Counted from the stretch's first letter, positions 1,963 through 33,439 are shown. The stretch: DNA of 33,758 nt from Candidatus Eisenbacteria bacterium (GCA_020847735.1 JADLBL010000004.1:1-33758); one strand, 5' to 3'. Made by a program: numbers and translations. Notes: generated by a model from the sequence alone, not told the origin.

Positions 1963-2547
1963 ATGGATGCTCGGTCCACCGGGCCATGGATGGAATCCGG
2001 CCGCGAAGCCGGACTGGTGCTGTCGGCGCAGCGCGGCGATCTCGACGCGATGCTCGAGCTGCTGCGCCATTACCAGCACCCGCTGTGGCGGCTGTGCTTC
2101 GCGTTCACGCGCGACGTGGTGGACGCCGAGCGGCTCGCCCAGGAGGTCGCGCGCCGCGCGCTGCGCAACGTGCGCCAGCTTCCGGTCGGTCAACCCTTCT
2201 TCCCGTGGATCGCGCGCCTCGCGCGCACGCTCGCCATCGCCTGGCTGCGCCGCAAGGTCGGAGGACCCGCCGAGCGCCGCGAGGGCCACCTGCGCCGCCC
2301 GAACGGCGAACGCTGGAGCAGCGGCGCGTTGGGCGCGCACCATCTGGAGTACGAGCGCAAGGTCCTCGACGCCTTCGGGGAACTGCCGGCCGAGGACCAG
2401 ATGCTGCTCGCGCTGCGGCTCTTCGAACGGCTGCCGTACGCCGAGATCGCGGTCGTCGCGGGCCTCGCGCTGCCGCCGACCATGCACCGCATCGCGGCGC
2501 TGCGCGAGAAGATCGAGCACGCCGTGCGCGACGGGAAGGCCGCGTGA
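1963..2547 (+). CDS. ECF-subfamily RNA polymerase sigma factor
   Basis: A 194-residue protein with the two-domain plan of extracytoplasmic-function sigma factors. Region 2 (about residues 35-100) includes HPLWRLCFAFTRD, DAERLAQEV and FFPWIARLARTLAIAWLRR, a good match to the usual WLxRIARNxAxDxLRR pattern. Region 4 (about 130-185) includes FGELPAEDQMLLALRLFE and YAEIAVVAGLALPPTMHRIA, the helix-turn-helix that reads the -35. The start is ATG at 1963 with GAGGAGG 10 nt upstream. A second in-frame ATG nine codons later (MESGR) is possible but lacks as good an SD. The stop overlaps the GTG of the next gene, a typical sigma/anti-sigma arrangement. The protein ends KAA. ECF subgroup and regulon cannot be read from the sequence alone. 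Confidence 0.9.
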   Translation: MDARSTGPWMESGREAGLVLSAQRGDLDAMLELLRHYQHPLWRLCFAFTRDVVDAERLAQEVARRALRNVRQLPVGQPFFPWIARLARTLAIAWLRRKVGGPAERREGHLRRPNGERWSSGALGAHHLEYERKVLDAFGELPAEDQMLLALRLFERLPYAEIAVVAGLALPPTMHRIAALREKIEHAVRDGKAA

Positions 2548-4739
2548 GGCACCTGACCGTCCAGCAGATCTCGGGCTCGCTCGACGGGGCGCTCTCGGGT
2601 GTCTCGCTCGAACTGGTGGTCCGGCACCTGTCGAGCTGCCACGAGTGCCGCGAACGGCACGCGCGGCTGACGAAGCAGGACGACGCGCTTCGCCGGCTGC
2701 TGGCCTGCGAGTTCTCGGACGTGTTCTTCGACGACATGCTCGCGCGCCTGGGCGCGGTGCTCGAGGCGGAGTCGCGCGGACAGATGCCGCCCGAGCACGC
2801 GCTGCCGCCCGAACTGCCGCCGCTCGGTCCCGACAAGCCGCCCTCCCGGGAAATGGCGCGTCCCTCCGCCGCGATGCGCAATCCCGCCCTGCCTTCGGAG
2901 GAAGAGCAGAAGCGTCGCGCGGCCGAGGAGCTCAAGGCGGCCGAGGCCGCGGCCATGAACTCGCTCGAGGAGCTGATGCGCGAGATGCGCGAGGCGCGCG
3001 GTGTCGCGAGCGCGAAGCCCGAATCCGCGCCGGAGTCCGGCCCGCCCGACGCCGCGTCCTCGCCCGCGTCCATCCTGCAGCTTCCGCCCGAGATCCTCGC
3101 GTCGCTGCGGGACGCGGCCGCGGCGATGCCCGAGGTCCCGCCCGCGCGGAAAGCTGGTCCGGTCCGCGCGAGCGAGCCCGAACCGCGGCCCGAGCCCGTC
3201 CGCGCGAGCGAGCCCGTGCCCCGGCCCGAACCTATTCGCGAAACCGAAGCCTCGCCGGACCGCGCGAGCGAGCCCGAGCCGTGGCCCGAACCGAGCCGCG
3301 CGAGCGAGCCTGAACCCCGGCCCGAACAGGAGCCGATCCGGATCGTGCCTGTCGGGGAAGACCCCGTGGACGAGCCGCGGCTCGAGCCGGCGATGCATGC
3401 CGGGCCGGTCTGCTCGTCTCCCGACGAGGGGCCGTTCGCGCCGGTGCGAGACAGCGTCTCGGTGGATGACGAGCTGCCGATTCGCGCGGAGCAGGACCCG
3501 CCTGCCCTGCAGTGGGAGGTCATCGAGGGACCGCTGCCCGTGGGTCCGGACTTCGGCACGACGGCGGAATCGGCCGCCGAACCCGAGCCTCGGGCGCATC
3601 GCACGGACGAATACGCGGCCGCGCCCACGACATTGCCGCAGCCCGAGCCCGAGCCGGTTCCCGAGCCAGCGCCAGAGCCCGCACGCTGGTCAGCTCCCGC
3701 TCGTCCGGTCGAGCCGGCCCGTTCGTCCACTCCCTCCACCCGACCCGGCGATGGACGCGAACCGGCGGCTGCCGAGCCAGCCCGGTCTCCCGCGCAGTTG
3801 CGTCACTCCCGGCAGCCGAACCCGGTGGACGATCCCTACGCCGACTACGAGGAGCGGCTCGAGCAGGAACCGCCCGAGAGCGCGCGCCACCGCCCGGCGG
3901 GCCGCCGGCTGCGCAAGCGCCACATCGTCGGCGCGGCCGTGGCGGTGACGGCGCTGCTGATGGCGCTGGCGGGCAGCGGCTACCTGCCCGCGGTGATTCG
4001 CGTGCCCCTGCCGCAACTGCCCAGGCCGCGCGTGCCGCGCATCGAGGTCGTGCGCGTGCCGCTGGCATCCACGCAGGAGCCGGCGCGCGATCCGCAGGAC
4101 GAAACGCTGGCGAGCACGCCGGAGGGAACCCGCCCGGTCGTGCGCACAGCGCCCTCGCCCTCGGGCGAGCCGCGCGTGGTGCGGCCGAATCGCGCAGGGT
4201 CCGCGGCCATGAAATCGGAATCACCGGCAGCTTCCGCGCCGAAACCCGTGGCACCTCCCGTGCGCGAGTCGGTCGCGGAGTCGCGCCCGGCGCCGGTCCG
4301 CACGCCGGTTCCCACGCCCGTCACCGAGCGCCCGACTCCGCCGACTCCCGCCGCGAGCACTCCGGCGCCCGTCCGGGCCGCAAGCCCGACGCCCGTTCAG
4401 ACCACGCCACCCGCGCCCGTTCAGGCCTCCCGCCCGGCGCCGGCCGAGGCCTCGCCGACTCGCGCCTCCGAGACGGAAGCCACAGACAGCGCCTCGTGGC
4501 CGCTGCTGTGCGGCATCGTGCTCGACGAGACCGGCGCTCCGGTCGCGGGCGCGCGCGTGACGCTCGCCGACCTGGACCTGGGCGCACGCACCGACCGTCG
4601 GGGCCGCTTCTGCGTGGCCGCGCCTCCCGGGGATCGCACCCTGTCGGTGGTGGCGACCGGCTTCGTGACGAGCCGCAGGGTCGTGAGCCTGGGGACGGAA
4701 AACCTCGAGGTCTCGATCCCCCTGACCCCCGCGCCCTGA
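2544..4739 (+). CDS. Transmembrane zinc-motif anti-sigma factor with C-terminal carboxypeptidase-regulatory-like domain
   Basis: A 731-residue protein starting at GTG 2544 inside the sigma stop (GTGA overlap). GGGAAGG just upstream serves as SD within the sigma coding end. Residues 28-35 read H-x3-C-x2-C (HLSSCHEC), the zinc-associated anti-sigma signature, so the N-terminal domain should bind the ECF factor in the cytoplasm. A charged helical stretch follows (about 110-150). Next comes a long Pro/Glu/Ala-rich low-complexity region with RASEPEPRPE repeats. One hydrophobic span follows RKR at about 460-480 (HIVGAAVAVTALLMALAGSG). A second Pro/Ala/Thr-rich linker leads to a compact domain at about 653-731 (GIVLDETGAPVAGARVTL ... 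TDRRGRFCVAAPPG), typical of CarboxypepD_reg folds. The domain order implies cytoplasmic sigma binding and a periplasmic sensor on a long tether. Release mechanism and signal are unknown. It is much longer than a typical anti-sigma factor (about 200-300 residues). Confidence 0.82.
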   Translation: MRHLTVQQISGSLDGALSGVSLELVVRHLSSCHECRERHARLTKQDDALRRLLACEFSDVFFDDMLARLGAVLEAESRGQMPPEHALPPELPPLGPDKPPSREMARPSAAMRNPALPSEEEQKRRAAEELKAAEAAAMNSLEELMREMREARGVASAKPESAPESGPPDAASSPASILQLPPEILASLRDAAAAMPEVPPARKAGPVRASEPEPRPEPVRASEPVPRPEPIRETEASPDRASEPEPWPEPSRASEPEPRPEQEPIRIVPVGEDPVDEPRLEPAMHAGPVCSSPDEGPFAPVRDSVSVDDELPIRAEQDPPALQWEVIEGPLPVGPDFGTTAESAAEPEPRAHRTDEYAAAPTTLPQPEPEPVPEPAPEPARWSAPARPVEPARSSTPSTRPGDGREPAAAEPARSPAQLRHSRQPNPVDDPYADYEERLEQEPPESARHRPAGRRLRKRHIVGAAVAVTALLMALAGSGYLPAVIRVPLPQLPRPRVPRIEVVRVPLASTQEPARDPQDETLASTPEGTRPVVRTAPSPSGEPRVVRPNRAGSAAMKSESPAASAPKPVAPPVRESVAESRPAPVRTPVPTPVTERPTPPTPAASTPAPVRAASPTPVQTTPPAPVQASRPAPAEASPTRASETEATDSASWPLLCGIVLDETGAPVAGARVTLADLDLGARTDRRGRFCVAAPPGDRTLSVVATGFVTSRRVVSLGTENLEVSIPLTPAP
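3165..3334 (+). repeat. 36-bp in-frame tandem repeats in the anti-sigma gene
   Basis: CGCGCGAGCGAGCC begins at 3165, 3201, 3261 and 3297, with a degenerate copy at 3237. Steps are 36, 36, 24 and 36 nt. Each unit encodes roughly RASEPEPRPEPV. All steps are multiples of three, so changes in copy number would keep the frame and alter tether length only. Confidence 0.8.
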
Positions 4740-4856: not shown

Positions 4857-4887
4857 GCTAATGCACCCGCCGCAGCGGGGCCGATAT
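4857..4887 (+). promoter_or_regulatory. Sigma-28-like promoter upstream of cheA
   Basis: GCTAATGC (4857-4864) is followed by GCCGATAT (4880-4887). The FliA/SigD consensus is TAAA, 14-16 nt, then GCCGATAA or GCCGATAT. Here the core is TAAT, 17 nt, GCCGATAT. The same words at the same spacing occur at 14132-14162. A start near 4895 would leave a leader of about 105 nt before the cheA GTG. Chemotaxis genes are classic sigma-28 targets, which supports the reading. The one- to two-base longer spacer is the main weakness. Confidence 0.5.
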
Positions 4888-4909
4888 CCAGAGGAGAGCC
4901 GGCAGGCTC

Positions 4910-4931
4910 GCGCCCGCCCTGCGGCGGGCGC
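4910..4931 (+). other. Perfect 9-bp hairpin in the cheA leader
   Basis: GCGCCCGCC, loop CTGC, then GGCGGGCGC: nine uninterrupted GC-rich pairs with a 4-nt loop, just downstream of the predicted start site. It is followed by GTCCTTTCC rather than a U-run, so it is not a standard terminator. It may stabilise the leader or slow the polymerase, but its role is unknown. The rest of the 4740-5000 gap shows no ORF I trust. Confidence 0.5.
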
Positions 4932-5000
4932 CGTCCTTTCCGTGCCAGTGGGCTTCCCCGAACCACCTCGACCCGTCGTGGGCGTGGAGCGCGTCATTCC

Positions 5001-7151
5001 GTGAGCGAGTTGGACGACAAGATCGTCAACGAGTTCCTCGTGGACAGCTACGAGGGCCTGGACCGGCTGGACCGCGACCTGGTCGAGATCGAGTCGTCCA
5101 CCGGTTCCTCGGCCGCGGTCGTGCGCGCGTTTCGGACCCTGCACACGATCAAGGGCACCTGCTCGTTCTTCGGCTTCCGCCGGCTCGAGCGCGTCGCGCA
5201 CGCGGGCGAGAACCTGCTCGCGCGCGTGCGCGCGGGCGAGCTCGCGCCCAGCCCGGCGATCACGCGGGTGTTGCTCGCGGTCGTGGACACCGTGCGCTCG
5301 ATCCTCTCGAGCATCGAGTCCACCCGCGCCGAAGCGCCCGGCGACGACGGTCCCGTGCTCGCGCAGATCGCCGAGCTGACGGGAGCGCAGGACGCCGCCG
5401 CTTCGCGCGGCCCCGCCGGCGCGGGCGCGAAGGGCGCGACGCCCGCGGGCGGCCGGCCGGTCGCGACCGAACCGCAGGTGGCACGCGTTCCGGCGGCCGC
5501 CGAACCCGCCGACGACGGCACGCTGCAACGCGCGAACGTGCGCGTGGACGTGCGCGTGCTCGACGGCCTCGTCAACCTGGTCGGCGAACTCGTGCTGGCC
5601 CGCAACCAGCTCGTGCAGCACATCGCGCGGCAGGACTGGACCGCGCTGCAGACGAGCGCGCAGCGGCTCAATCACGTCACCTCGCGCCTGCAGGAGGAAG
5701 CCCTGCGCACGCGCATGCAGCCGATCTCGGCGCTGTGGACGAGGCTGCCGCGCCTCGTTCACGACGTCGCCGAGGCGTGCGGCAAGCAGGTGGCGCTGAG
5801 CATGGAGGGCACCGACACCGAGCTCGACAAGACGCTGGTCGAGGCGCTCAAGGATCCGCTCGTCCACCTCGTGCGCAACGCCGTGGATCACGGCATCGAA
5901 TCGCCCGAGGCCCGGCTCGCCGCCGGCAAGCCGGCCGAGGGACGGCTGCGGATGCGCGCCTGGCACGAGGCCGGACAGGTGCACCTCGAGATCCAGGACG
6001 ACGGCGCGGGACTGCCGCTGGCCCGCATCCGCGAGCGGGCGCTCGAGCGCGGATTCGTCCGGCAGGCGGACGCCGATCACATGAGCGAGCGGGACTGGAT
6101 CTCGCTGGTCTTCCGCCCCGGATTCTCGACCGCCACGCGCGTGACGAGCGTCTCGGGCCGCGGCGTCGGCATGGACGTCGTCAAGACCAACCTCGAGCGC
6201 ATCGGCGGCTCCATCGAGCTGGCTTCCCAGGCGGGCGCGGGCACGCGCGTGCGCCTGCGCATTCCGCTCACGCTCGCGATCCTACCGGCGTTGCTCGTCG
6301 AACACGCCGGCGAACGCTACGCGCTGCCGCAGATGCACCTGGTCGAGCTGGTCCGCGTCTCGGCACGGAACCTCGGCGCGCGCATCGAGTGGCTGCACGA
6401 CTCGCCGGTCTACCGCCTGCGCGGCCGGCTGCTGCCGCTGGTGTTCCTCTCGCAGGTCCTGCGCGGCGCCGACCCGCGCCGGTCCCCCGGCCGCGGTCTG
6501 GTCGTGCTGCGCGCCGAGGGCCGCACCTTCGGGCTGGTCGTGGACGCGGTGCACGACACCGAGGAGATCGTCGTCAAGCCGCTTTCCGAGCGGCTGCGCT
6601 CGGCGGACCTGTTCGCCGGAGCGACGTTGCTCGGCGACGGCCGCGTCGCGCTCATCCTCGACGTGCCGACGCTCGCGCGGGTCGCCGGCGTCAGCGGCGG
6701 CGAGGAAGGCTTCGCCGTCGCCGCGCCCGCGGTCGCCGGTCGCGGCCTGCTGCTCGTGGACCTGTGCGGCGGCGGCCGGGCCGCGGTGCCGCTCGAACAC
6801 ATCGGCCGCATTGACGAGCTGCACGCCGCCGAGTTCGAGCACCGCCCGGGAGGCTCCGCCGCCCGCTGGCGGGGCGAGGTGCTGCCTGTGGCGCCACTCT
6901 CGCCCGCGGGCGAAACGCGCGCGGTGCCGGTCGCGGCGGACCGCCTCTATCCGGTCCTCGTCGGGCGCGCGGACGGCCGCTCGTTCGGCTGGGTCGTGGA
7001 CGCGATCGCCGACGTCGTGACGGTCGAGGCGTCTCCGGCCGTGGGCGGGCGACTGCTGCTCGCCGACCGCATCACCGACCTCGTCGAGCTCGCACCCGAG
7101 TTCACGGCGCGCTTCGCGGAGCCTTCGGTCGCCTCGCGGGAGGCCGCATGA
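5001..7151 (+). CDS. cheA: Chemotaxis histidine kinase CheA with two CheW-like domains
   Basis: A 716-residue cytoplasmic sensor kinase that takes signals from methyl-accepting proteins and phosphorylates CheY and CheB. The N-terminal HPt domain (about 1-110) carries the phosphorylated His48 in [12 protein letters not shown]. An Ala/Gly/Pro linker follows (about 130-170), and no obvious P2 CheY-binding domain is present. The dimerisation helices (about 175-240) include [18 protein letters not shown]. The ATPase domain has the N-box [14 protein letters not shown] (His289, Asn293) and DDGAGL. The first CheW-like domain spans about 418-560 and a second, more divergent one about 570-701 ([20 protein letters not shown] ... 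[16 protein letters not shown]). The start is GTG with GGAG 11 nt upstream. The stop overlaps cheW by ATGA, and GGGAGG inside the last codons acts as its SD. Confidence 0.96.
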
Positions 7152-7651
7152 GCGCGACTCCCGCGGCCGTCTCGGGCTGGTGCACGTTCCGCGTCGCCGG
7201 CCGCCTGTGCGGCCTCGACGTCACGCGCGTTCAGGAGGTCCTGCGCCCGCAGCCGGTGACGCCGCTGCCGCTCGCGCCGCCGGCGGTGCGGGGGCTGCTC
7301 AACCTGCGCGGCCGGATCGTGCCCGCGGTGGACCTGCGCGCGGTGCTGGGGTTGCCCGCGCCGGAAGCCGCGGCCCCGGCGGGGCACCTCGTCGTCTTCG
7401 ACGGCGACTCGCCGGTCAGCCTGCTCGTGGACGCGATCGGCGACGTGCGTCGTTCCGGCGACTGCGCGCTCGTGCCCGTGCCCCACACGCTCGAAGGCCC
7501 CGCCCGCGACCTCATCGCCGGCGCGGTGCCCCTGCCCGACGACCTGCTGCTCGCGCTCGACCTCGACCGAATCCTCGAACGCGCCTTCGCCGGAGCGGGC
7601 GCGGACCCCACCACCGGCCGCCCCCCGCGGCCCGCCGGAGGAACCCGATGA
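7148..7651 (+). CDS. cheW: Chemotaxis coupling protein CheW
   Basis: A 167-residue scaffold that links receptors to CheA. One CheW domain fills the protein: [20 protein letters not shown] near the start, then [21 protein letters not shown] (residues about 40-60), the family's most typical stretch, and [10 protein letters not shown] near 95-105. Translation is coupled to cheA through ATGA at 7148-7151, and the stop overlaps the first MCP gene in the same way. The C-terminal 20 residues are Pro/Gly-rich and probably disordered. Its place between cheA and two receptor genes fits one core signalling unit encoded together. Confidence 0.95.
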
Positions 7652-9282
7652 ACTGGACCGTTCGCCGAAGGCTCACAGCCCTCAGCCTGCTGAGCACCTT
7701 CCTGATCCTCGCCGGGGGTGGCGTCTGCTGGATCGCGCTCGATCAGTCGAGCCGCACAGCGCGCGACCTGGGCGGCGTGGCGCGGGCGCTGCGCTTCCAC
7801 CTCGAGGTCGTGCACGCGCAGGCGGAGCTGGCGGGCGACGTCCACCGCGGCCTGCTGGCCACGAACGACGAGGAACTCGACCGCGTCCGGCAGGACTTTT
7901 CGGCGCACGTCGCCGAGTACGACCGCCATCGCGGCGAACGTGACGCCTGCGCCCTGGACGGCGCGACGAAGGCGGCGATCGAGGACGGCCGTGCGAGTGC
8001 GATCGACTACAACCGCCGGGCCGCCTCGATCCTGGCCGCGGCGGGCAGGGGCGACCGCACCCGTGCGCTCGCGTCGCTGACCGCGTTCGAGGCGAGCGCC
8101 CGCGAGCTCGAGGAGAAGAACACCGCCATCACCGGCCGGCTCTACGACCACGCGATCGCGGGCGAGAGCCGCAGCGGCGAGATCGCACGGCGCGCCGCCG
8201 TGCTGGCGCTGCTGCTGCCGCTGCTCATCGCCATCGCCCTGTGGCTCGCCGCCCGTGCCATCCGGCGCAGCATCATCGAGCCGGTGGACCACGCCGTGAA
8301 CGTGCTCGACGCGCTGTCGAGCGGCGACCTGGGCGCGCGCGCCGACCTGCGCACCGACGACGAGCTGGGCCGCATGGGCCGCGCGATTGATCGCGCCGCC
8401 GCGAGCCTCGGCACCACCATCTCGAACATCGCCCGCAACGCCACCTCGGTGGGCAACGCCTCCGAGGAGCTGGCGAGCGTCAGCCAGCAGCTGTTCAACA
8501 ACGCGCACGAGACCTCGACCCAGTCGAGCGTCGTCTCGAGCGCCTCCGAGGAGGTGCACGCCAACGTCCGCCTGGTCGCCGCCTCGGCGCAGGAGGTCGG
8601 AGCCAGCATCCGCGAGGTCGCGCACAACGCCCAGGAGGCGGCCGGCGTCGCCCGCACCGCCGTCGCGGTCGCCGAGCGCGCGAACACCACCGTGCAGCAG
8701 CTCGGCGACAGCACGCAGCAGATCGAGGACGTCCTCGAGGTGATCACCTCGATCGCCGAGCAGACCAACATCCTCGCGCTCAACGCCGAGATCGAGGCGG
8801 CGCGCGCCGGCGAGGCCGGCAAGGGCTTCGCGGTCGTCGCCAACGAGGTCAAGGAGCTGGCGCGCGAGACCGCCCGCGCCACCGAGGACATCAACCGGCG
8901 CATTGACGCGATCCGCGACAACAGCCGCGAGGCCGTCGCCACGATCGGCGAGATCGTCGCGATCATCGAGCGCATCAACGCCACCCAGACCACGATCGCC
9001 TCGGCGGTCGAGCAGCAGAGCGCCGCGACCGCCGAGATCACCCGCAGCATGGGTGAGGCGGCCCGAGGCACGGCCGAGATCGCCGAGACGATCGGCGCCG
9101 TGGCGCGCTCGACCGAGAGCACCAGCGCGGGCGCGCGCGAGACCCAGCGCGCCGCGAACGAGCTGGCGATGATGGCGGCCGAGCTGCAGCGCATGGTCGT
9201 CCAGTTCCGCGGTCACGCGGGCGCGCCGCGCGCGGCCGCCGCGCCGGCCGGCGACGTGGTCCCTCTGCGGAGAGCCGCATGA
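7648..9282 (+). CDS. Methyl-accepting chemotaxis protein with periplasmic helical sensor
   Basis: A 544-residue receptor. TM1 is at about residues 12-32 ([20 protein letters not shown]). A periplasmic region of about 150 residues is strongly helical and resembles the four-helix-bundle MCP sensor. TM2 is at about 184-204 ([20 protein letters not shown]), followed by HAMP (about 205-260, with [20 protein letters not shown]). The signalling domain follows, with the highly conserved hairpin tip [19 protein letters not shown] from about residue 371. Glu-Glu/Gln-Glu pairs such as ASEEL, SASEEV and SAQEV are candidate methylation sites. There is no C-terminal CheR-binding pentapeptide; the protein ends LRRAA. 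ATG 7648 overlaps the cheW stop and GGAGG lies 10 nt upstream. The ligand is unknown. Confidence 0.93.
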
Positions 9283-10505
9283 AGTCCCGGCTGACGAACC
9301 TGCCGCTGCACCGCCACCTCGCGATCCTGTCGCTCGCGCCGGCCGCGAGCGTCGCGGTCTTCGCCGTGGTGTTCCTGCTGCGTGCGGGATACGAGGCGGC
9401 GGCCCTCGGGGTCTTCGCCGCGCTGTGCGCGCCCGTGCTCGCCGTGGCCGCCGTGTACGGGCGCGGCCTGATCCGGGTCGTGTACGCGGACGTGCGCGCG
9501 CTCACCCACATGGCCTCGGCCATGGCCGACGGGCGGCTCGACGTCCGCGTTCCCGTCGAGGGCCACGGCGAGGTCACCAACCTGTGCCTCGCGATGAACC
9601 GCCTGAACGACGCGCTCGTCTCGGTGACCGGCCAGCTCCAACGCCAGTCGCAGGCGCTCGCGCGCGCCTCCGAGGAGATGAGCATCGTCAGCTTCGAGAT
9701 GAGCACCAACGCCGAGAACACCTCCGGCGGCGTCGCGGGGCTGTCCTCGAGCGCGCAGGAGGTCAGCCAGAGCGTCGGCGCCGTCGCCGTCGCCGTCGAG
9801 CAGATGGGCGGCAGCATCCTCGAGATCTCGAAGAACACCACCGAGGCGGCCCGCATCGCCGCCGCCGCCGCCGCCGAAGCCCATTCGGCGAGCGGAACGG
9901 TCACGCGCCTCGGCGCGAGCAGCGACACGATCACGGGCGTCGTTCAGACGATCGCCTCGATCGCGCGGCAGACGAACCTGCTGGCGCTCAACGCGACCAT
10001 CGAGGCGGCGCGCGCCGGCGAGGCCGGCAAGGGCTTCGCGGTCGTCGCCCACGAGGTCAAGGAACTGGCCCGCAGCACGTCGGCGGCCACCGAGAACGTC
10101 GCCCGCACGATCGAGAGCGTGCGCGCCGACACGCACGACGCCGTCGAGGCGATCGAGCGCATCCGCGACACCATCGTCCAGATCAAGCAGATCTCCAGCT
10201 CGATCGCGAGCGCCGTGGACGAGCAGCTCGCCACGACGAGCGAGATCGGGCGCAGCCTCGGCCTGGCCGCGAGCGGCGCGATCGAGATGAGCGACGGCAC
10301 CGGGCAGGTCGCCGAAGCCGCGCAGCAGTCGGCCGCCGGCTCGTCGCGCACGCAGAGCGCCGCCGGCGAACTCGCGCGGCTCGCCACGCACATGCGCCGC
10401 CTCACCGATCGCTTCCGGCTCGATTCCACCGCCACCGCCAGCGCCGAGCCCGGCGCGGGCGCCCCGCACGCACCCGAGGATCAGGAACTCCGCCGGGCCG
10501 CGTGA
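9279..10505 (+). CDS. Methyl-accepting chemotaxis protein lacking a periplasmic sensor domain
   Basis: A 408-residue receptor. Two hydrophobic segments sit close together (about 20-39 and 45-65) with only RAGYEA-like residues between them, so there is no room for an external ligand domain. A HAMP-like linker follows (about 65-120: [20 protein letters not shown]). The signalling domain has the tip [19 protein letters not shown] from about residue 230. It would have to sense membrane or cytoplasmic state, or act only by clustering with the preceding receptor. The ATG overlaps the upstream stop, with GGAGAG in the last codons of that gene as SD. It ends ELRRAA, nearly the same tail as its neighbour. 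The first tip residue is Arg where the neighbour has Glu. Confidence 0.92.
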
Positions 10506-10516
10506 CGCCCGGCACA

Positions 10517-10528
10517 TCCTTATAAGGA
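10517..10528. promoter_or_regulatory. 12-bp perfect palindrome overlapping the cheY Shine-Dalgarno
   Basis: TCCTTATAAGGA is a perfect palindrome in the 30-nt gap before cheY. Its right half forms part of AAGGAGG (10524-10530), the SD five nt before the cheY ATG. It is the most AT-rich spot in this part of the window. It could be an operator, a weak -10-like element (TTATAA) or a structure that hides the SD. None of these is proven. Confidence 0.45.
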
Positions 10529-10535
10529 GGAGCAG

Positions 10536-10919
10536 ATGAAGGCACTGGTCGTTGACGATTCACGCGCCATGCGCAGCATCATCGGAAAGTACCTTCGCGA
10601 ACTGGGCTTCGAGGTGTTCGACGCCGCGAGCGGCCTGCAGGCGCTGGTGGACATCCGCAAGATCGACGGGCTCTCGCTCGTTCTGGTGGACTGGAACATG
10701 CCCGAAATGGACGGCTGCGAGTTCCTGCAGAAGGTCCGCAACGAGCCGCAGTTCCAGGACGTGCCGATCATGATGGTCACGACCGAGAGCGAGATGGAGC
10801 AGGTGGCCGTCGCGCTCGAGGCCGGGGCGAACGAGTACCTGATGAAGCCGTTCGACAAGCAGGGCCTGCTCGAGAAGCTGCTTCTGCTCGGCGTGGACCC
10901 GGGCGAGCAGGCGGCGTGA
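10536..10919 (+). CDS. cheY: Single-domain response regulator CheY
   Basis: A 127-residue receiver domain with no output domain. The acidic pocket is Asp7/Asp8 (VVDDS), the phospho-acceptor is Asp52 (LVDWNMPEMDG), the switch Thr is in MMVTTESE (82-83), and the invariant Lys is Lys104 (LMKPF). All catalytic positions are intact. In the family, phosphorylated CheY carries the CheA signal to a flagellar switch or another motor. No motor genes are in the window, so the target is open. It has its own strong SD (AAGGAGG) 30 nt after the MCP gene, which may allow higher expression than the overlapping genes upstream. It ends EQAA. Confidence 0.95.
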   Translation: MKALVVDDSRAMRSIIGKYLRELGFEVFDAASGLQALVDIRKIDGLSLVLVDWNMPEMDGCEFLQKVRNEPQFQDVPIMMVTTESEMEQVAVALEAGANEYLMKPFDKQGLLEKLLLLGVDPGEQAA

Positions 10920-10938
10920 CGGAGCGCGCGAGGACCGC

Positions 10939-12024
10939 ATGAAACGCATCCGCGTCCTGGTGATCGACGACAGCGTCACCGTCCGCCAGCTGCTGGTGGA
11001 CGCCCTGTCGGCCGATCCGGAGGTTCACGTCGTCGGCACGGCGCCCAACGGCGCGCTCGGCGTGACGCTTCTGCCGCGGCTCGTGCCGGACGTCGTCGTG
11101 CTCGACGTGGACATGCCGGTCATGGACGGGCTCGCGTTCCTGCAGCGCGTGCGCCCGGCGTGGCCGAAGCTGCCGATCATCGTGTTCAGCACGCACACGA
11201 CCCACGGCGCCGAGACCACGCTTCAGGCGATGTGGTTCGGCGCGACCGACTACGTCGCCAAGCCCAGCGCCTCCGACTTCGAGTCCGCCGTTCAGCAGGC
11301 GCGCCGCGACCTGCTGCCGCGGATCAAGGCCTTCGCGCGCCGCGACGCGGCCGCCGCCGGCCCCGCGCCCCCGCGTGCGGGCGCCCTCGCCGCGTCCGCC
11401 GGCCCCCCCGCCTCGCCGGGTCCCGCGCCGCGCCCGACCGTCGTGGCGATCGGCGCGTCCACCGGCGGCCCGCGCGCGCTGGCCGAGTTGCTCGGGGCGC
11501 TGCCCGCCGACTTTCCCCTGCCGGTGCTGATCGTCCAGCACATGCCGCCGCTTTTCACCCGCCACCTCGCCGACGGACTGTCGGCGCAGTGCGAGCTGCC
11601 GGTGCTCGAGGCCGGGCACGGCGCGACGCTCGAACCCGGAACCATCTGGGTCGCTCCCGGAGATCACCACCTGACGGTCGGACGCGACGGTCCGCAGCTG
11701 CGGCTGTGGCTCGACCAGGGACCGCCGGAGAACGCGTGTCGCCCGTCGGTGAACCCGCTCTTCCGCTCCGTCGCCGACGTCTTCGGCCACGGCGCGCTCG
11801 GCGTCGTGCTGACCGGCATGGGCCAGGACGGGCTCGACGGCGCGAGCCGCATCCGCGCCGCGCGCGGCCAGGTGATCGTGCAGGACGAGCCGAGCAGCGT
11901 CGTCTGGGGCATGCCCGGCGCGATCGCCCGTGCCGGGCTCGCCGACAAGGTGCTGCCGCTCGCTTCCATCGCGCCCGAGATTCTCGTCCGTGCCCATCGC
12001 TCCGGAGGCCGACGTGCAGCCTGA
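10939..12024 (+). CDS. cheB: Chemotaxis methylesterase/glutamine deamidase CheB
   Basis: A 361-residue protein that removes methyl groups from receptor glutamates and is activated by CheA phosphorylation. The receiver domain occupies about 1-125 with Asp10/Asp11 and phospho-site Asp56 (VVLDVDMPVMDG). An Ala/Pro linker (about 135-165) leads to the esterase domain, whose catalytic triad is visible as Ser174 (AIGASTGGP), His201 (VQHMPP) and Asp297 (TGMGQDG). Other family landmarks are IWVAPGDHH and SVNPLFRSVA. GAGGA lies eight nt before the ATG. The last codons contain GGAGG, which is the SD of cheR, and the two genes overlap by 11 nt. Together with CheR it gives this system methylation-based adaptation. 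Confidence 0.96.
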   Translation: MKRIRVLVIDDSVTVRQLLVDALSADPEVHVVGTAPNGALGVTLLPRLVPDVVVLDVDMPVMDGLAFLQRVRPAWPKLPIIVFSTHTTHGAETTLQAMWFGATDYVAKPSASDFESAVQQARRDLLPRIKAFARRDAAAAGPAPPRAGALAASAGPPASPGPAPRPTVVAIGASTGGPRALAELLGALPADFPLPVLIVQHMPPLFTRHLADGLSAQCELPVLEAGHGATLEPGTIWVAPGDHHLTVGRDGPQLRLWLDQGPPENACRPSVNPLFRSVADVFGHGALGVVLTGMGQDGLDGASRIRAARGQVIVQDEPSSVVWGMPGAIARAGLADKVLPLASIAPEILVRAHRSGGRRAA

Positions 12025-12886
12025 CCCGAAGCCCGGTATCGGCGGCGCGCGACCGGCGCTCTCGCCGCAGGATCACGACATGCTGCGCACGCTGCTCTTC
12101 CAGCGCACCGGCATCCGTCTCGAGGAGGGCAAGGAGTACTTCGTCGAGATGCGCCTGTGCTCGCTCGCGACCGACGAGGGCTTCGGCTCGCCCACCGACG
12201 TGCTCGAGGTCCTGCGAACCGAGGAGAGCTGGGGCGTGCTTCACCGCCGCGTGGCGGAATGCCTCGCCATCGCCGAGACGTCGTGGTTCCGCGACGTGCA
12301 CCCGTTCGACGAGCTGCGCCGCAGCGTGCTGCCGCAGCTCATCCAGCGGCGCACGACCACGCGCGAACTGCGCCTGTGGAGCGCCGCCTGCGCGAGCGGG
12401 CAGGAGCCGTACAGCGTCGCGATGCTGCTGCGCGAGCACTTTCCGCAGCTCGTCTCGTGGCACGTGCACCTGCTGGCCACCGACTTCTCGACCAGCGTGC
12501 TGCGGCGCGCCCGCGAGGCGGTGTACAGCCAGATCGAGGTCAACCGCGGACTCCCCGCGCCGATGCTGGTGAAGTGGTTCCGCAAGGACGGGCTCGACTG
12601 GCGGCTGCGCGACGACGCGCGCAACGCGGTCGAGTTCCGCGAGCTGAACCTGACCGCGCCGTGGCCGGCGATGCCGCCGCAGGACATCGTGCTGCTCCGC
12701 AACGTGCTGCTCTACTTCGACGCCGCGACGCGCCGCACCGTGCTGCGCAACGTGCACCGCGTGCTCGCCCCCGACGGCCTGCTGTTCCTGGGCGGGGGCG
12801 AGACCACGCTCACCATGGACGACTCGTTCGAACCGGTTTCGTTCGGCCGCACCGTGGCCTTCCGGCCGCGGCCGGGCGTCCGCTGA
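12014..12886 (+). CDS. cheR: Chemotaxis protein methyltransferase CheR
   Basis: A 290-residue SAM-dependent enzyme that methylates receptor glutamates. The N-terminal helical domain contains MLRTLLFQRTGIRLEEGKE. The SAM-binding domain has LRLWSAACASGQEPYSVAML (the family's AGCSTGEEPYS-like motif) and DIVLLRNVLLYFDAATR (family form: CRNVLIYF). ETSWFRD matches the family's ETxFFRD. The frame is open well upstream of 12014. I chose GTG at 12014 because GGAGG (12004-12008) sits five nt before it, and upstream codons read as shadow of cheB. The start therefore lies inside cheB, giving an 11-nt overlap. Confidence 0.93.
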   Translation: MQPDPKPGIGGARPALSPQDHDMLRTLLFQRTGIRLEEGKEYFVEMRLCSLATDEGFGSPTDVLEVLRTEESWGVLHRRVAECLAIAETSWFRDVHPFDELRRSVLPQLIQRRTTTRELRLWSAACASGQEPYSVAMLLREHFPQLVSWHVHLLATDFSTSVLRRAREAVYSQIEVNRGLPAPMLVKWFRKDGLDWRLRDDARNAVEFRELNLTAPWPAMPPQDIVLLRNVLLYFDAATRRTVLRNVHRVLAPDGLLFLGGGETTLTMDDSFEPVSFGRTVAFRPRPGVR

Positions 12887-12905
12887 AGGGAGTGAGGTGA
12901 AGCCG

Positions 12906-13391
12906 ATGGGCCGTGACACGATCCCGATGCAGGAGTGGTTGAAGACCTTCGAGGCCGCCGCGGCCGAGTTCGCCACCGGTTCCATGCGCTTCGACGCGAA
13001 GACCGATCTCGCCACCGCCGAGACCGCGCGTCCCGGCGCGTACATCGCCATCCTCTCGGAGCGCAACTCCATCCATCTCGGGCTCTCGACGACCAGCGCC
13101 GGGCTGCACGCGCTCGCCCGCGGCCTGCTCGGGCTGCGCGCGAGCGAGGACCTGACCGACAAGGAAGTCGCCGACGGTGTCTCGGAGGTGATGAACATCG
13201 TCGCCGGCAAGGTGAAGTCGCAGATGGCGGGCCGCGACGGCCAGCTCCGGCTCGGGCTGCCGATGTACCTGCCGAGTCCCATCAGCGCCGGGCCCGGCAT
13301 GGAAGTGCTCGGCGCCGAAGTCCGGCTCGGGCCGGTGCCCTGCCGGCTCAGCGTCTATCGCCGCACGCTCCAGCAGCGCAAGGCGGCGTAG
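12906..13391 (+). CDS. cheX: CheX-like CheY-P phosphatase
   Basis: A 161-residue protein of the CheC/CheX/FliY class, which removes phosphate from CheY-P. The phosphatase helix is seen as SEVMNIVAGKVKSQM, giving Glu94 and Asn97 in the E-x2-N signature, with a Pro about 22 residues later (GLPMYLPSP) as in the family. Only one such helix is present, which is more like CheX than the two-helix CheC. The ATG at 12906 has GAGGTGA five nt upstream. A GTG at 12897 with GGGAG is an alternative that adds three residues. It is the last gene of the che operon, followed directly by a strong hairpin. No CheZ or CheD is seen, so this is the likely signal-termination enzyme. It ends RKAA. Confidence 0.78.
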   Translation: MGRDTIPMQEWLKTFEAAAAEFATGSMRFDAKTDLATAETARPGAYIAILSERNSIHLGLSTTSAGLHALARGLLGLRASEDLTDKEVADGVSEVMNIVAGKVKSQMAGRDGQLRLGLPMYLPSPISAGPGMEVLGAEVRLGPVPCRLSVYRRTLQQRKAA

Positions 13392-13430
13392 GGCGCCGGC
13401 GGCCGCAGGTCCATCGCGGCCGCCGCGCCC
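13391..13430 (+). terminator. Long GC hairpin at the end of the che operon
   Basis: The 5' arm (13391-13406, GGGCGCCGGCGGCCGC) pairs with the 3' arm (13416-13430, GCGGCCGCCGCGCCC): 15 pairs with one bulged C and a 9-nt loop (AGGTCCATC). It begins on the last base of the cheX stop codon. No U-run follows, so it is not a textbook rho-independent terminator. It could still end transcription in a GC-rich genome or protect the mRNA 3' end. Confidence 0.6.
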
Positions 13431-13482
13431 ATGATGTGGCGCCCATGCCGTCGTGCCCGCGCTGTCGTGCCCATGATGTTCC
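13427..13482. repeat. Four tandem 14-bp units after the che-operon hairpin
   Basis: Units start at 13427, 13441, 13455 and 13469: GCCCATGATGTGGC, GCCCATGCCGTCGT, GCCCGCGCTGTCGT, GCCCATGATGTTCC. All four share GCCC at positions 1-4, G at 7 and GT at 10-11; units 1 and 4 are nearly identical. The first unit overlaps the foot of the hairpin. The period is not a multiple of three and no trusted ORF spans it, so this is non-coding repeat DNA of unknown role. Confidence 0.55.
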
Positions 13483-13568
13483 GGGCCTCGCGCGCCCCTT
13501 GCCGAGGGCCCGTCCGGGCCGCGATAGTTCCTCCCTCGACGCAGCGCCTCGAACGCGCGGAGGATCCG

Positions 13569-13673
13569 GTGAAGCGCACGCAGACCGACACGGCGCCCGG
13601 CAGCACGGTCACGTTCGATACGATGAACGGCTTCCGGCCGCGCAAGCCCGGGACGGAAGGCGAAAACCCGTGA
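13569..13673 (+). CDS. Possible 34-residue small ORF coupled to the DUF3224 gene
   Basis: GTG at 13569 has GGAGG (13559-13563) five nt upstream. The frame encodes VKRTQTDTAPGSTVTFDTMN and 14 further residues rich in Pro, Gly and Lys, then stops at 13671-13673. The stop overlaps the GTG of the next gene (GTGA), the same junction type used elsewhere in the window. There is no signal peptide or recognised domain. It could be a leader peptide that couples translation of the DUF3224 protein, or a chance ORF in GC-rich DNA. Good SD placement and the exact overlap are the only support. Confidence 0.3.
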   Translation: MKRTQTDTAPGSTVTFDTMNGFRPRKPGTEGENP

Positions 13674-14077
13674 CCGCCCGCGCCACCGGGCCGTTCGAGG
13701 TGAAGCTCGCTCCGCTCGCGCTCTCGGAGGTCGCGGCCGAGTCGGGGCTCGGGCGCATGTCCCTGGACAAGGTCTTCCACGGCGATCTCGAGGCGACGAG
13801 CACCGGCGAGATGCTGAGCGCGATGGGAAACGTGCAGGGCTCGGGGAGCTACGTCGCGCTCGAGCGGGTGATCGGCACGCTGCACGGACGCCACGGCACG
13901 TTCGCCCTTCTCCATCGCGGCACGATGACCCGCGGCGCGCAGGCACTCAGCGTCACCGTCGTGCCCGACTCGGGCACGGGCCAGCTCGAGGGCCTCGCCG
14001 GCTCGATGGAGATCGTGATCGAGGATAGGGCCCACTCGTACGTCCTCGACTACACGCTGCCCGACCGCATCGCCTGA
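13670..14077 (+). CDS. DUF3224 domain-containing protein
   Basis: A 135-residue cytoplasmic protein that closely follows the DUF3224 pattern throughout: FEVKLAPL near the start, GRMSLDKVFHGDLEATSTGE (residues about 27-46), SGSYVALERVIGTLHGR, GTFALLHRGTMTRGAQALS, then VVPDSGTGQLEGLAGSM and HSYVLDYTLP at the end. The family forms a small beta-barrel-like fold of unknown biochemical role. The start is GTG 13670, with GGAAGG nine nt upstream, overlapping the stop of the possible 34-codon ORF. It sits between two larger operons with no obvious functional link to either. The 14078-14344 gap after it contains the next predicted promoter. Confidence 0.88.
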   Translation: MTARATGPFEVKLAPLALSEVAAESGLGRMSLDKVFHGDLEATSTGEMLSAMGNVQGSGSYVALERVIGTLHGRHGTFALLHRGTMTRGAQALSVTVVPDSGTGQLEGLAGSMEIVIEDRAHSYVLDYTLPDRIA

Positions 14078-14131
14078 CGGCGCCGCCGGGCCGCGCCGCC
14101 CGCCCCGGCGCGTTGCGAAACGCCACTCGGC

Positions 14132-14162
14132 GCTAAAGCCGGGCCCGCCCGCCGCCCGATAA
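14132..14162 (+). promoter_or_regulatory. Sigma-28-like promoter upstream of the DUF11 surface-protein operon
   Basis: GCTAAAGC (14132-14139) is followed by CCCGATAA (14155-14162). The TAAA word is intact and the -10 matches the FliA/SigD word GCCGATAA at seven of eight bases. TAAA and the -10 octamer are 17 nt apart, exactly as in the sequence before cheA at 4857-4887. A start near 14170 would give a leader of about 175 nt. The repeat of both words at one spacing, in two promoter-sized gaps, is the main support. Confidence 0.5.
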
Positions 14163-14325: not shown

Positions 14326-14344
14326 CACCAGGGAGGTTCCGGCG

Positions 14345-14854
14345 ATGTTCCAGCACCTCAAGCGCGCCCTCGCGTTCGCGATCGTTGCCGCGGCGTTCTC
14401 GGCCCCGGCGACCGCGTTCGCGGACGGCGGCGTCCGCGTCGCACTCAGCTCGCAGCGCGTGACGATCGTCGAAGGCAAGGAAGTTCTCGTGTCGGCCGAC
14501 AAGGCCCGGCCCGGCGACGTGATCGAGTACCGCGCGGTCTACAAGAATGACGGCCGCACCGCGGTTCGAGAACTCGACGCCACCCTGCCGGTGCCCAGCG
14601 GGCTCGAGTACCTGCCGAAGACCGCGGCGCCCGCCGTGGTCCTCGCGAGCACCGACGGCCGCACGTTCGCCCCGGTTCCGCTCGTCCGCACCGTCCGCAC
14701 GACCGACGGGCGCGAGGTCGTCCGCGAGGTTCCCCTCGCGGAGTACCGCGCGCTGCGCTGGTCCATCGGGACGCTGGCGGCGAAGGAGTCGCGCACGGTG
14801 CGCGCGCGCATGCGGGTCGCCCCGCTCGCGAGCGTGGCCGCGAACGAACGCTGA
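14345..14854 (+). CDS. Small secreted DUF11-like protein
   Basis: A 169-residue exported protein. The signal peptide MFQHLKRALAFAIVAAAFSA ends at about AFA-DGG (residue 27). The mature part is one Ig-like DUF11 module: VLVSADKARPGDVIEYRAVY, KNDGRTAVRELDATLPVP and SGLEYLP, the usual 'unequal repeat' pattern in which a disclaimer-like 'PGD.I.Y...' strand is followed by 'LP.GL.Y'. A threonine/valine/arginine-rich half follows (RTVRTTDGREVVREVPLAEY), ending in LAAKESRTVRARMRV. The start is ATG with GGGAGG eight nt upstream. It is the first gene after the sigma-28-like promoter. DUF11 modules in other bacteria make up surface and adhesion proteins. Here it may be a subunit or chaperone for the large proteins downstream, which is inference. 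Confidence 0.8.
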   Translation: MFQHLKRALAFAIVAAAFSAPATAFADGGVRVALSSQRVTIVEGKEVLVSADKARPGDVIEYRAVYKNDGRTAVRELDATLPVPSGLEYLPKTAAPAVVLASTDGRTFAPVPLVRTVRTTDGREVVREVPLAEYRALRWSIGTLAAKESRTVRARMRVAPLASVAANER

Positions 14855-17770: not shown

Positions 17771-20700
17771 ATGAGCCCAGCAAGGATCACAGAACGGTTT
17801 CGACACGCCCCGCCCGCCCCGATGCGCGCGTGGGCGTTCGGGCTTGTTCTGGCCCTTGTCCCGCCCGCCTTCGCCGCGCCGCCGGCGGGCACGCCGATCC
17901 CCAACACGGCCTACGCCTCCGGCCGCGACTCCTCCGGCGGCTCGCCGGTCCTCGGCACCAGCAACACCGTCACCGCCCACGTGCAGGTGCTCGAAGGCGT
18001 CTCGCTGTGGCCCGACCGCCGCGCCTCGGCCGCCGCGGGCGCGAGCGTCACGTTCCAGCACCGGCTTCGCAACCGCGGCAACTTCACCGGCGACTTCCAG
18101 CTCGAAGCCGTGGACCTGGGTGGCGATCAGTTCGACTTCGGCGCCTTCACGCTCGTGCACGACGTGGACCGCGACGGTCAGGTCGGCGGCGCGGACGTGG
18201 TCGTGCCCAATGCCGGCACGCTCGCGATCGCCCCCGGCGACTCGGCCGACCTGCTGGTCACGGTCCAGGCCGCCGGCACGCCCGGGCTCGGACGCTTCTC
18301 GCTGAGGGCCACGAGCGGTTTTCAGTCGGTCACCGCCTCGGTGACCGACAGCGTGGACGTCGCGCCGCTCGCGCCGGCGGTGGTGCTGTTCGCCGAGAAG
18401 TCCGCTTCGCGCCCCGTCGTCGAGTGGGGCGACGAGTTCGACTACCGCGTGCGGGTCGCGAACCGCTCCGACAGCGCGCTCGCGTCGGTCACGCTCGACG
18501 ACGCGCTTCCGCCGGGATTCACCTACGTGCGCGGAACCGCGCGGATCGGCGGCGTTCCCGCCCCGGATCCCGCCGGCGCGCCGGGCCCGCGCCTCGACCA
18601 CGCGCTCGGGAGCCTAGCGCCCCGCGGCGAGGTCGAGCTCGTCTACCGCGCGCGCGTCGGCCCCGGCGCCCCCGCGGGCGACGCGCGCAGCGAGGCGGTC
18701 GCGCATTCCGGCGTCGCGACCTCGAACACCGCCCTCGCCGTCGTGCGCGTGCAGGGCGACGCGTTCGCCGACGAGGCCATGGTCACGGGCACGGTCTACT
18801 ACGACGCCAACCGCGACGGCCGGCTTTCGCCCGGCGAGCCCGGGCTGGCGGGCGTGCGGCTCTACCTCGACGACGGTTCCTTCGCGGTCACCGACGAGCA
18901 CGGCCGCTACAGCCTGACCGGGCTCACGCCGCGCACGCACGCGCTCAAGGTGGACCGCACGACGCTGCCGCCTTCGGCGGCGGTCGCCGAGACCGACCTG
19001 CGCTCGTCGGGCCTGCCGGGCGTGCGCTTCGTGGACCTGACGCGCGGCGATCTCGTGCGCGCGGACTTCGCCGCCGTCGGCGACACGACGATGCTGCGCG
19101 AAGCGGGCGAGCGGCGCAGCGCCGTCGCGGGCCGCGGCGCCGACGAGCGCGAGCGCGTGCTCGGCCGCGGCGCGGAGGCGCTCGCCGGCTCGCGCGCGAC
19201 GCCGGATCCACGTTCGCTGCCGGCCGAACGCATCGTCACCGGCGAGAGCGAACTGCCGGTCGTGACCGCGGTCCCGCAGGCGGCCACCGCCGTGGCGCAG
19301 GCCGCCGCGCCCGCCGTGTTCGACGCCGCCGCGATCGAGGCCATGCTGCCGGACCTGGATCCGGACCTGGGTTTCGTCGGCTTCGCCGACCTCGACACGG
19401 TCGCGGGCTCGCAGGTGCCGGTGGTGGTCAAGGGCCGGCTCGGGACTCCGCTGCTGCTGCGCGTGAACGGAACGGTGCTGCCCGAGTCCCGCATCGGCCG
19501 CCGCTTCGCCGTGCCCCGGCAGGGTCTCGAGGTGTGGGAGTACATCGGCGTCTCGCTGCGCCCCGGCGTCAACGTGCTCGAAGTCGCGCCGCCGCGCTCG
19601 GTCGGGCGCGTCGCGCTGCGCCTGGTCGCGCCGGGACCGATCGCCCGGCTCGAGTGGAGCGCGCCCGCGGGCGTGCCCGCCGACGGACACAGCGTCGCCT
19701 CGCTGCTGCTGCGCGCGGTGGACGCGGCCGGAGTTCCGGTCGGCGAGCACACGCTGGTGACGCTGGACGCAGGCAGCGGACGGCTCGGCGCCGGCGATCT
19801 CGACCCGGCGACGCCGGGCGTGCAGGTGGCCATGCAGGGCGGCGCGCTGCGCGTGCCGCTGGTCGCGCCGGCGACGCCCGCGACCGTCAAGGTGACCGCC
19901 ACCACCGGCGGGACCCGCGCCGCGGCCGCGGTCGAGTTCGTGCCCGACCTGCGCCCGCTGATCGCCGTCGGCTCGCTCGAAGGCGTGGTCTCGCTGCGGC
20001 GCTTCGCCCGCGCGCGGCCCGGCGCCGCCTGGCAGCAGGCCTCGTTCGAGGCGCCGACGACGCAGTTCGCCAGCCAGAGCCGCGACGGCGAGGCGGCCGC
20101 GACGGCGCACGGCGCGATGTTCCTGAAGGGCCGCGTGCGCGAGTCGCTGCTGCTGACGGTCGGCTGGGATTCGGACCGGCCGCGCGACCTGCGGCAGTTC
20201 CGCGACCTGCAGCCGGACCGCGGCTTCCCGGTGCTCGGCGACGCTTCGGCGCGCGGCTGGGAGGCGCAGTCCACGGGCCAGCTCTACGTGCGCCTCGAGC
20301 AGCGCGAGGCGTCGGTGCTGTACGGCGACTTCGTCACCGGCGGCGCCGGCGCGCGCTCGCTGGGCAACTACAGCCGCAGCCTGACCGGCGCGGCGGCGCG
20401 CTGGGCGAACGACGCCGGCTCCTTCAGCGCGTTCACGAGCCGCGACCGCTCGGCGCGCGCGGTGGACGAGCTGCGCGGCGAGGGCACCTCGGGCCCCTAC
20501 CAGCTCACGCGCCTGCCGATGGTCGAGAACTCCGAACGGGTCGAGATCATCGTGCGCGACCGCGCGCAGCCCGCGATCGTGCGCGCGGCGAGCGTCAAGC
20601 AACGCTTCACCGACTACGAGATCGAACCGCTCACCGGCCGCGTGCTGCTGCGCGCGCCGGTGCCGAGCGTGGACGCCGAGCTGAACCCGGTCTTCGTGCG

Positions 20701-27414: not shown

Positions 27415-27431
27415 CGGATGCCGAATCGCCG

Positions 27432-27447
27432 AAAGTCCTTTAGACTT
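27432..27447 (+). promoter_or_regulatory. Possible promoter or operator before the sialidase-like gene
   Basis: AAGTC, CTTTA, GACTT forms a small inverted repeat in the only AT-richer spot of the gap. It includes TAGACT, a fair -10-like word about 80 nt before the start codon. No good -35 is seen at 17 nt, and neither sigma-28 word is present, so this operon does not appear to share the upstream control. Confidence 0.25.
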
Positions 27448-27522
27448 CTCGCGCCGTTTTCCCCCCCCGGGGCCGCGGCGGCAGGGCCCGGGGAAGATCG
27501 CGACGCACCGAAAGGACTCCGC

Positions 27523-30126: not shown

Positions 30127-30131
30127 CATCC

Positions 30132-33100: not shown

Positions 33101-33413
33101 CACGATCCTGCCGCAGTCGGTCCTCGCCGCGACGCCGGCGGTCCCTTCTCGTTTCGAGCTGCTGGGCGCGTGGCCGAACCCGGCGCGCGGCGACTTCTCG
33201 GTCTCGCTCGCCCTTCCGCAGGGCGGCCGCGGCGCGCGGCTCGAGCTGCTGGACCTGGCCGGTCGCCGGGTCGCCGAGGTTCCGCTCGGCAGCTACGGCC
33301 CGGGCGTGCATGCCGTGCCGCTGCGCTCGGCCGGGCTGCACCCGGGGGTCTACCTGGTGCGGCTCGCGGGCCACGGGGCGCTCAGCACGCGGAAGGTCGC
33401 GCTGCTCAATTAG
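30132..33413 (+). CDS. Secreted M12-like zinc metalloprotease with VCBS propeller and T9SS-type C-terminal domain
   Basis: A 1093-residue exported protein. The signal peptide ends near AHA (residue 25). The propeptide (about 26-210) contains Cys180 in WECGVD, similar to the cysteine switch of ADAM-type zymogens. The catalytic domain (about 215-440) has the metzincin zinc site HELGHNFGSWH (353-363) and the Met-turn IMSYCH (Met407), so it should be active. Then come a fibronectin-III-like domain (about 452-530) and seven FG-GAP/VCBS repeats (about 549-897) with calcium-loop motifs such as DFDENGVPD and DWNADGVPD, probably a seven-bladed propeller. An Ig-like domain (about 900-1000) precedes a C-terminal sorting domain (NPARGDFSVSLALP ... 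PGVYLVRL). The start is five nt after the preceding stop, and the SD GAGGTGA (30120-30126) includes that stop codon, so the two exoproteins are co-translated. Confidence 0.93.
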   Translation: MRFPRPFALILCLTLLPAVTPQAHARELLTRVAPGSGRLATLTARPGATLLAVDRAALDQLRGAGSGTLALPLADGSAVELELERRELFAPGAQVTYTDGSGPHSFTPDVAVFRGRVNGEPDSWAMLTLTRDEVRLTLSRGGEQLLLMPSAAPEPGAAGPTLHVLSREAAVLPKLAPWECGVDGANEAALDHGEPARPRANPYSIELDAPRRTFTIAVDCDSEIVGKFGGNLTAASNYIATLLATVSLVYERDLEVTLNVGYLNFWTTTDPYTAVDTQNQLPQFRSWWNANRGGVPRSLAHLLSGRSLGGGIAYIDVLCASTSNGYGYGVSAIDCAYAYPTNATTWDAEVVAHELGHNFGSWHTHSCNWSALGYITPPGATIDTCFASEGGCQSAPLHVPVDKGTIMSYCHQLSGGINNLRMDFHPACITRMRERVNLAACATNPAIAPPRNVIASAIPTGVRIAWDASSTAGVTGYDVYRSRSMLDFAPAWIGSTSGLSFDDSGLGLWFYKVRAHTTGDTSGFGAEVKFDMCAIGVDPEQATGSTPIAVASAELTGDGIADLVTLDQAAGSVSLLAGGGSGGIGDGTFAAATSVVTTPASPQCLLVTDAGNDGLADLVVGTGADSALWIYPGGGTGGVPNGTFGAGTRLPLGFVPAGVASADFDENGVPDFVVAGGASGLTLLFGNGAGGVPDGTYGAPVLVSFGATTRGVVVGDFDENGIWDIATTTNTYLRVLRGQGVNGVGNGTFMAPTQHNASANAWDLVTGDFNQDGITDLFTVYSTVGGAGMLLGNGSGGVGSGTFPAAATIVTVGSNARGPCVGDWNADGVPDLAFVNNNANKTVSILIGKGNGTFNTAITWTAGTNPYALAVGDWNHDGGIDLAAVNRGANSVTTLLAGCGAELSLTLTNPAGGDTLIESVNHLLTWTKDSHVGAVDVEVSRDGGASWAAIARNLTGTSFDWTATAPATSQARVRVVDVARRWASDASGDFTILPQSVLAATPAVPSRFELLGAWPNPARGDFSVSLALPQGGRGARLELLDLAGRRVAEVPLGSYGPGVHAVPLRSAGLHPGVYLVRLAGHGALSTRKVALLN

Positions 33414-33439
33414 AAGGGGGCCCGCTCCCCCGGGAGACG

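Follow-up and report, generated by a model that had tools for sequence, protein, structure and literature searches.

The stretch of DNA analysed here (the window) is a complete contig of 33,758 bases (C4; JADLBL010000004.1) from the draft genome of Candidatus Eisenbacteria bacterium GCA_020847735.1 (3.66 Mb in 27 contigs, 99.6% complete). It carries a chemosensory operon, whose cheA is the only CheA match in the genome, followed by an operon of four genes for DUF11 proteins, and an intergenic predicted sigma-28-type promoter lies upstream of each (Table 1). The −10 word ends 113 nucleotides (nt) before the GTG of cheA at the first site and about 182 nt before the ATG at 14345 at the second. 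A first-pass annotation had described these sites as two words at identical spacing in both places, and our reading of the coordinates and the sequence agrees. The sites are identical at 18 of 31 positions, which amounts to the two words and scarcely more.

Both words are rare in the G+C-rich (73%) DNA of the window: CTAA and CCGATA occur twice apiece on the plus strand, always within the two sites. In the whole genome, CTAA-N{10,30}-CCGATA was found four times, two of these being the window sites with their identical spacing, and GCTAAWGC-N16-CCGATAW matched exactly in the cheA and DUF11 gaps only, with no further match at one mismatch and six at two. No motif match arose in 100 shuffles of the window, and Markov-1 simulations of each intergenic gap gave no family-consensus site in 20,000.

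In E. coli, sigma-28 promoters have the arrangement TAAAG-N14-GCCGATAA. Each window site combines a TAAA-like −35 with a GCCGATAA-like −10 at a restricted spacing, TAAWG-N16-[G/C]CCGATA, and both belong to an N16 subclass. The words had been said to fit the FliA/SigD consensus with a spacer 'one or two bases longer', and this holds because N16 is one base longer than in the arrangement that dominates this genome, TCAAG-N15-GCCGATA, and two bases longer than the N14 of E. coli.

We searched the genome with the pattern CTNAWG..CCGATA, allowing 8–30 free bases, and with the looser form TNAWG..CCGATA. Thirteen of 17 matches to the former fell at two adjacent spacings (P about 3e-11 versus uniform), as did 22 of 35 matches to the latter (16 N15 and 6 N16); with a control pattern in which the base after TATCG (a −10 base) was changed, 1 of 31 matches had an N15 or N16 spacing. 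Nearly all on-spacing sites lie 12–210 nt 5′ of a start codon on the same strand, often with a Shine–Dalgarno sequence, and the off-spacing matches that we examined (4 of 4) fall within genes. Of the 55 sites pooled over genomes, 44 have a G directly 5′ of CCGATA, a position that the pattern did not constrain. Five flagellum-negative relatives from the same family have the spacing peak as well (P 8e-8 to 1e-6), and G022, a genome without a clear sigma-28, has none (P 0.2); G016, for which the list of matches was truncated, was left out of these statistics. The genome-wide check that the first-pass annotation had proposed thus gave non-random matches, at two adjacent spacings and 5′ of same-strand genes, and we conclude that the class of predicted sigma-28 sites is real, although about two of the 22 on-spacing sites are probably due to chance.

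A sigma-28 homologue is present, as anticipated: a FliA/WhiG protein that matches TIGR02479 over its full length (1–224) with 254 bits (curated cut-off 189.6) and whose top matches in the PDB are WhiG (6pfv) and FliA (9wsf/6pmi). FlhA and flagellin, the export gate and filament genes by which we judged a flagellar regulon, gave no match in the 99.6% complete genome; both models score in control genomes, and other flagellar families were not searched. A sigma-28 of about 243–251 bits was found in all 19 family members searched. FlhA was detected in seven of them (G002, G003, G004, G006, G008, G012 and G014), all with a second FliA that in most cases adjoins FlhA, and gave no match in the other 12. 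G001 has a second FliA without detected FlhA, and the present genome has no second FliA. In a tree of 53 sigma factors, the family-wide copies form a single clade (100/99) whose sister is the FlhA-linked FliA of G020, a genome from the same order (96/91), and the second copies form a separate clade (100/99). The family-wide sigma-28 evolves slowly and is 79–92% identical across genera. These relationships fit vertical retention of sigma-28 after loss of the flagellum, with a different flagellar sigma factor in the present flagellates; we infer the direction of this second event, and the divergent second FliA suggests a separately acquired flagellar system.

The arrangement around the two sites is preserved outside the genus. 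In G018 and G019, which belong to another genus and count as one observation because they are close relatives, the entire che–DUF11 region is syntenic, with CheA 53–55% and the DUF11 proteins 53–65% identical. TCAAG-N15-GCCGATA precedes the DUF11 operon of both at a similar distance to the orthologous gene (0 of 20,000 simulations), and CTCAAG-N15-AGCGATAA precedes cheA (0.3% of simulations, one −10 mismatch allowed). A shared sigma-28-type regulon of the che and DUF11 operons is supported because the motif matches are non-random, the genome has a sigma-28 homologue and the counterpart sites recur in G018 and G019. The proposal that the surface proteins belong to the motility or chemotaxis regulon therefore stands for the sigma-28-type link and has to be amended as to a flagellar motility regulon, for which no FlhA or flagellin was found. 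Likewise, of the clustering to be checked for before flagellar, chemoreceptor and surface genes, we recovered the che and DUF11 operons and no predicted site before any flagellar gene in this genome. The remaining predicted targets indicate functions of type IV pili and MglA, of CsrA and of two-component signalling.

The predicted regulon is dispersed and comprises roughly 20 units (22 on-spacing sites). Besides the two operons, its predicted targets are csrA, the GTPase MglA, an FHA-HEAT/kinase-PilT unit, a YfiR-like protein with a CHASE8 hybrid kinase, a PAS hybrid kinase, a GAF kinase, a CheY-like regulator, TPR and HEAT proteins, a DUF4388/MshE-like protein with a cyclic di-GMP (c-di-GMP) domain, DUF885, an amine oxidase and several secreted proteins or lipoproteins. 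The identities of MglA (PDB 3t12/6h17, E 1e-69) and PilT (421 bits, over the cut-off) are certain by sequence, and PilM is also encoded in the genome (244 bits, over the cut-off), which completes the PilT/PilM pair that we took as the type IV pilus core. Genes that recur behind sites are csrA and the TPR protein (six genomes each) and MglA, the HEAT protein and the DUF11 operon (three each), counts that are not a census because the genomes were picked by site. The CheY-like regulator is a target in G000 and G019 only; we dropped it in G005, G007, G010 and G013, where the site falls within the upstream kinase gene. We also set aside a site before a second pilT (C20:42530), which lies within the start of accB, and one in a poorly coding stretch (C8:103556), and did not accept the TPR protein as SgmX (78 bits versus a cut-off of 1800). 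Separately, sigma-28-like sites were seen near Tad pilus genes resembling CpaB, CpaC and TadG, named by their appearance only (L169 in G007, L184 in G010).

We consider it probable that the words are genuine sigma-28 promoters and that an ancestral flagellar sigma factor persisted beyond the loss of its flagellum and has come to control a dispersed regulon of roughly 20 units for sensing and for surface motility with type IV pili and MglA. The genome's sigma-28 would read both window sites and direct polymerase to the cheA and DUF11 operons, and therefore the chemosensory and DUF11 proteins would be made together with MglA, PilT-type and CsrA functions, the predicted targets presumably forming one regulon. 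In the simplest working model, sigma-28 would thereby activate a programme for the cell surface, with type IV pili steered by the chemosensory system and MglA. The DUF11 proteins may act as part of the cell surface that serves contact or movement. As no flagellar motor was detected, type IV pili or gene expression are the most plausible targets of the only CheA. A more speculative extension, which we put forward with considerable doubt, is that throughout this family of uncultured bacteria the flagellar sigma has become master regulator of an organ for surface motility other than a flagellum. The sole chemosensory array, MglA, PilT and the four-gene DUF11 assembly would then be co-expressed as one system, with the DUF11 proteins as its surface structure.

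Several observations weigh against this interpretation. The window sites have the rarer N16 spacing and TAA in place of TCA at −35, the cheA sites of G018 and G019 have a mismatch in the −10, and three f5 genomes that share this che operon have no recognisable site there (nor did we find DUF11 genes beside it). No matching site lies near the pilM locus. G040, which lacks a clear sigma-28, shows weak enrichment at the peak spacings (6 of 25, P 0.018). Absence of the flagellum was checked with two flagellar families in a draft of 27 contigs, and all evidence on both promoters is sequence-based.

The draft state of the genome bears on the idea that the sites are promoters of an ordinary flagellar regulon and that its structural genes are lacking from the assembly only: the cluster of a flagellate relative would fit a gap between contigs. 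This we regard as very improbable, because the genome is 99.6% complete without FlhA or flagellin having been found, 12 of the 19 family members likewise gave no FlhA match, and the second FliA of the flagellate members is not in this genome. The two sites might instead be real elements read by another sigma factor or an activator, as the combination of a TAA −35 with N16 spacing is unusual in the genome and confined to them; their −10 word and near-identical spacing are nevertheless those of the genome-wide sigma-28 class, and the orthologous DUF11 site of G018 and G019 is canonical, so that a different reader appears improbable. The words are also short and degenerate, and the middles of the two sites are unrelated, as would be the case if their resemblance were fortuitous. 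With no match in the shuffles or the simulations of either gap, and with sites at both corresponding positions in another genus, chance is hardly credible.

A closer competitor accepts that sigma-28 controls both operons and holds that the regulon serves mainly development or biofilm formation and not type IV pilus motility. Many targets are kinases, lipoproteins or CsrA, the DUF4388/MshE-like c-di-GMP-domain protein and the YfiR-like unit are among them, and WhiG-type sigma factors have switched to sporulation in Streptomyces (PMC8325347). MglA and PilT, however, are direct surface-motility proteins, and the genome's only CheA operon lies within the regulon. We regard this alternative as rather unlikely, though deserving serious attention, and favour a sigma-28 regulon for surface motility and sensing.

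The other genes of the locus are listed in Table 1. The protein encoded upstream of the che operon has an N-terminal (zf-HC2) homologue in the same position in G018, G019 and the three f5 genomes, and a DUF3224 gene (13490–14077) lies between cheX and the DUF11 promoter. The first DUF11 gene has the Shine–Dalgarno sequence AGGGAGG at 14330 and a 63% identical orthologue in G019; this region (14330–14336) is conserved as CAGGGAGGT in the window and in its G018 and G019 counterparts. The leader before the gene is long in all three (about 170–185 nt), and its control by CsrA is conceivable because csrA is within the predicted regulon. Downstream of the DUF11 genes we noted a BNR-repeat protein with a weak match to a Por secretion tail (27418–30126) and a plus-strand frame with one stop codon that resembles a gene for a secreted protein (30063–33545).

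Table 1. Predicted promoters and genes of the che–DUF11 region (window positions).
Feature	Position	Strand	Basis or remark
zf-HC2/proline-rich/CarboxypepD_reg protein	2538–4739 (start approximate)	+	Pfam PF13490, PF13620
Predicted sigma-28-type promoter, cheA operon	4857–4887	+	GCTAATGCACCCGCCGCAGCGGGGCCGATAT; GC-TAAT-GC N16 CCGATAT
cheA	5001–7151	+	Hpt, H-kinase_dim, HATPase_c, CheW; PDB CheA 6s1k, 1.8e-91
cheW	7148–7651	+	Pfam CheW, 100.9 bits
Methyl-accepting chemotaxis protein 1	7648–9282 (start inferred from ATGA overlap with cheW)	+	MCPsignal, HAMP
Methyl-accepting chemotaxis protein 2 (short)	9279–10505	+	MCPsignal, HAMP
cheY-like response regulator	10536–10919	+	Sequence; orthologue in G019 operon 71% identical
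cheB	10939–12024	+	CheB_methylest, 214 bits
cheR	11930–12886 (open frame, true start within)	+	CheR, 178 bits
cheX	12897–13391	+	CheX, 32.3 bits, over cut-off
Predicted sigma-28-type promoter, DUF11 operon	14132–14162	+	GCTAAAGCCGGGCCCGCCCGCCGCCCGATAA; GC-TAAA-GC N16 CCGATAA
DUF11 operon gene 1, small secreted DUF11-like protein	14345–14854	+	DUF11, 22.5 bits, just below cut-off
DUF11 operon gene 2, 886 aa	14947–17607	+	DUF11, 40.9 bits; TIGR01451, 59 bits; G019 65% identical
DUF11 operon gene 3, 1538 aa, large surface protein	17771–22387	+	DUF11, SdrD_B; G019 53–61% identical
DUF11 operon gene 4, about 1646 aa	22384–27324	+	Beta-helix and DUF11; G019 58% identical

Two genes elsewhere in the genome are candidates for restraining the sigma factor. 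A small open reading frame (ORF) beside csrA (G000:C24, L009:17492–17698; counterparts in L199, L195, L210, L173 and L159) has the conserved C-terminus RVxxAxxRIxSGYYDRDDVRxxL, which looks FlgM-like by eye, and is a possible anti-sigma factor; it had no Pfam, NCBIfam or PDB match, and its identity as FlgM could not be shown. A HisKA-only protein (L010:3380–3766), a phospho-acceptor domain without the ATPase domain, is conserved in most of the family, where it lies downstream of the family-wide fliA, and was not seen beside FliA of the other families checked; it is a candidate only. The RsiG motif E(X)3S(X)2R(X)3Q(X)3D was absent from the ORFs of the stretches of this genome that we examined, which do not cover the whole genome.

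Among the closest known systems is WhiG of Rubrobacter radiotolerans, a non-sporulating, unicellular bacterium in which this sigma factor controls type IV pili and start sites have been mapped (PMC8325347). There, as here, a sigma factor of the flagellar clade is associated with promoters of the TAAA/GCCGATAA type that lie upstream of genes for type IV pili and signalling. In R. radiotolerans the pil cluster itself has promoters, dgc and pde genes are major targets, and RsiG and c-di-GMP control the sigma factor, whereas the predicted targets here are pilT, mglA, csrA, che and DUF11 genes. Legionella oakridgensis has kept a functional FliA, with FlgM, in the absence of a flagellum or flagellar regulon (PMC5655016). 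The retention that we describe, known from sequence alone, is similar but family-wide, and it differs in the target set and in having only a FlgM look-alike without a family match. Like the FliA regulon of E. coli and Salmonella, the present one has sigma-28 with TAAA/GCCGATAA words before chemotaxis genes, but no flagellar genes were found, the spacer is 1–2 bases longer and TCAAG is the commoner −35. A predicted sigma-28 site likewise precedes a che cluster in Geobacter, where, unlike here, flagellate species have this element before fliC too (PMC2577667). Sigma-28 of Chlamydia trachomatis (PMC10597470) and SigF of cyanobacteria (PMC8546353) may be counted as further non-flagellar sigma-28-like regulators, with different regulons.

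The principle is therefore already known from Rubrobacter WhiG and L. oakridgensis FliA. What is new is the family-wide retention beside a second flagellar sigma factor and the predicted targets, namely the CheA operon, MglA, CsrA, PilT and a DUF11 surface operon; we found no paper on this regulon among the open-licence literature searched. The family offers a testable case of a regulator that would have outlived its machine, which was either lost several times or regained together with another sigma factor. An uncharacterised DUF11 surface operon would be linked with chemosensory control. For a lineage that has no laboratory model, the motif also yields a list, ready for use, of genes that are candidates for surface motility.

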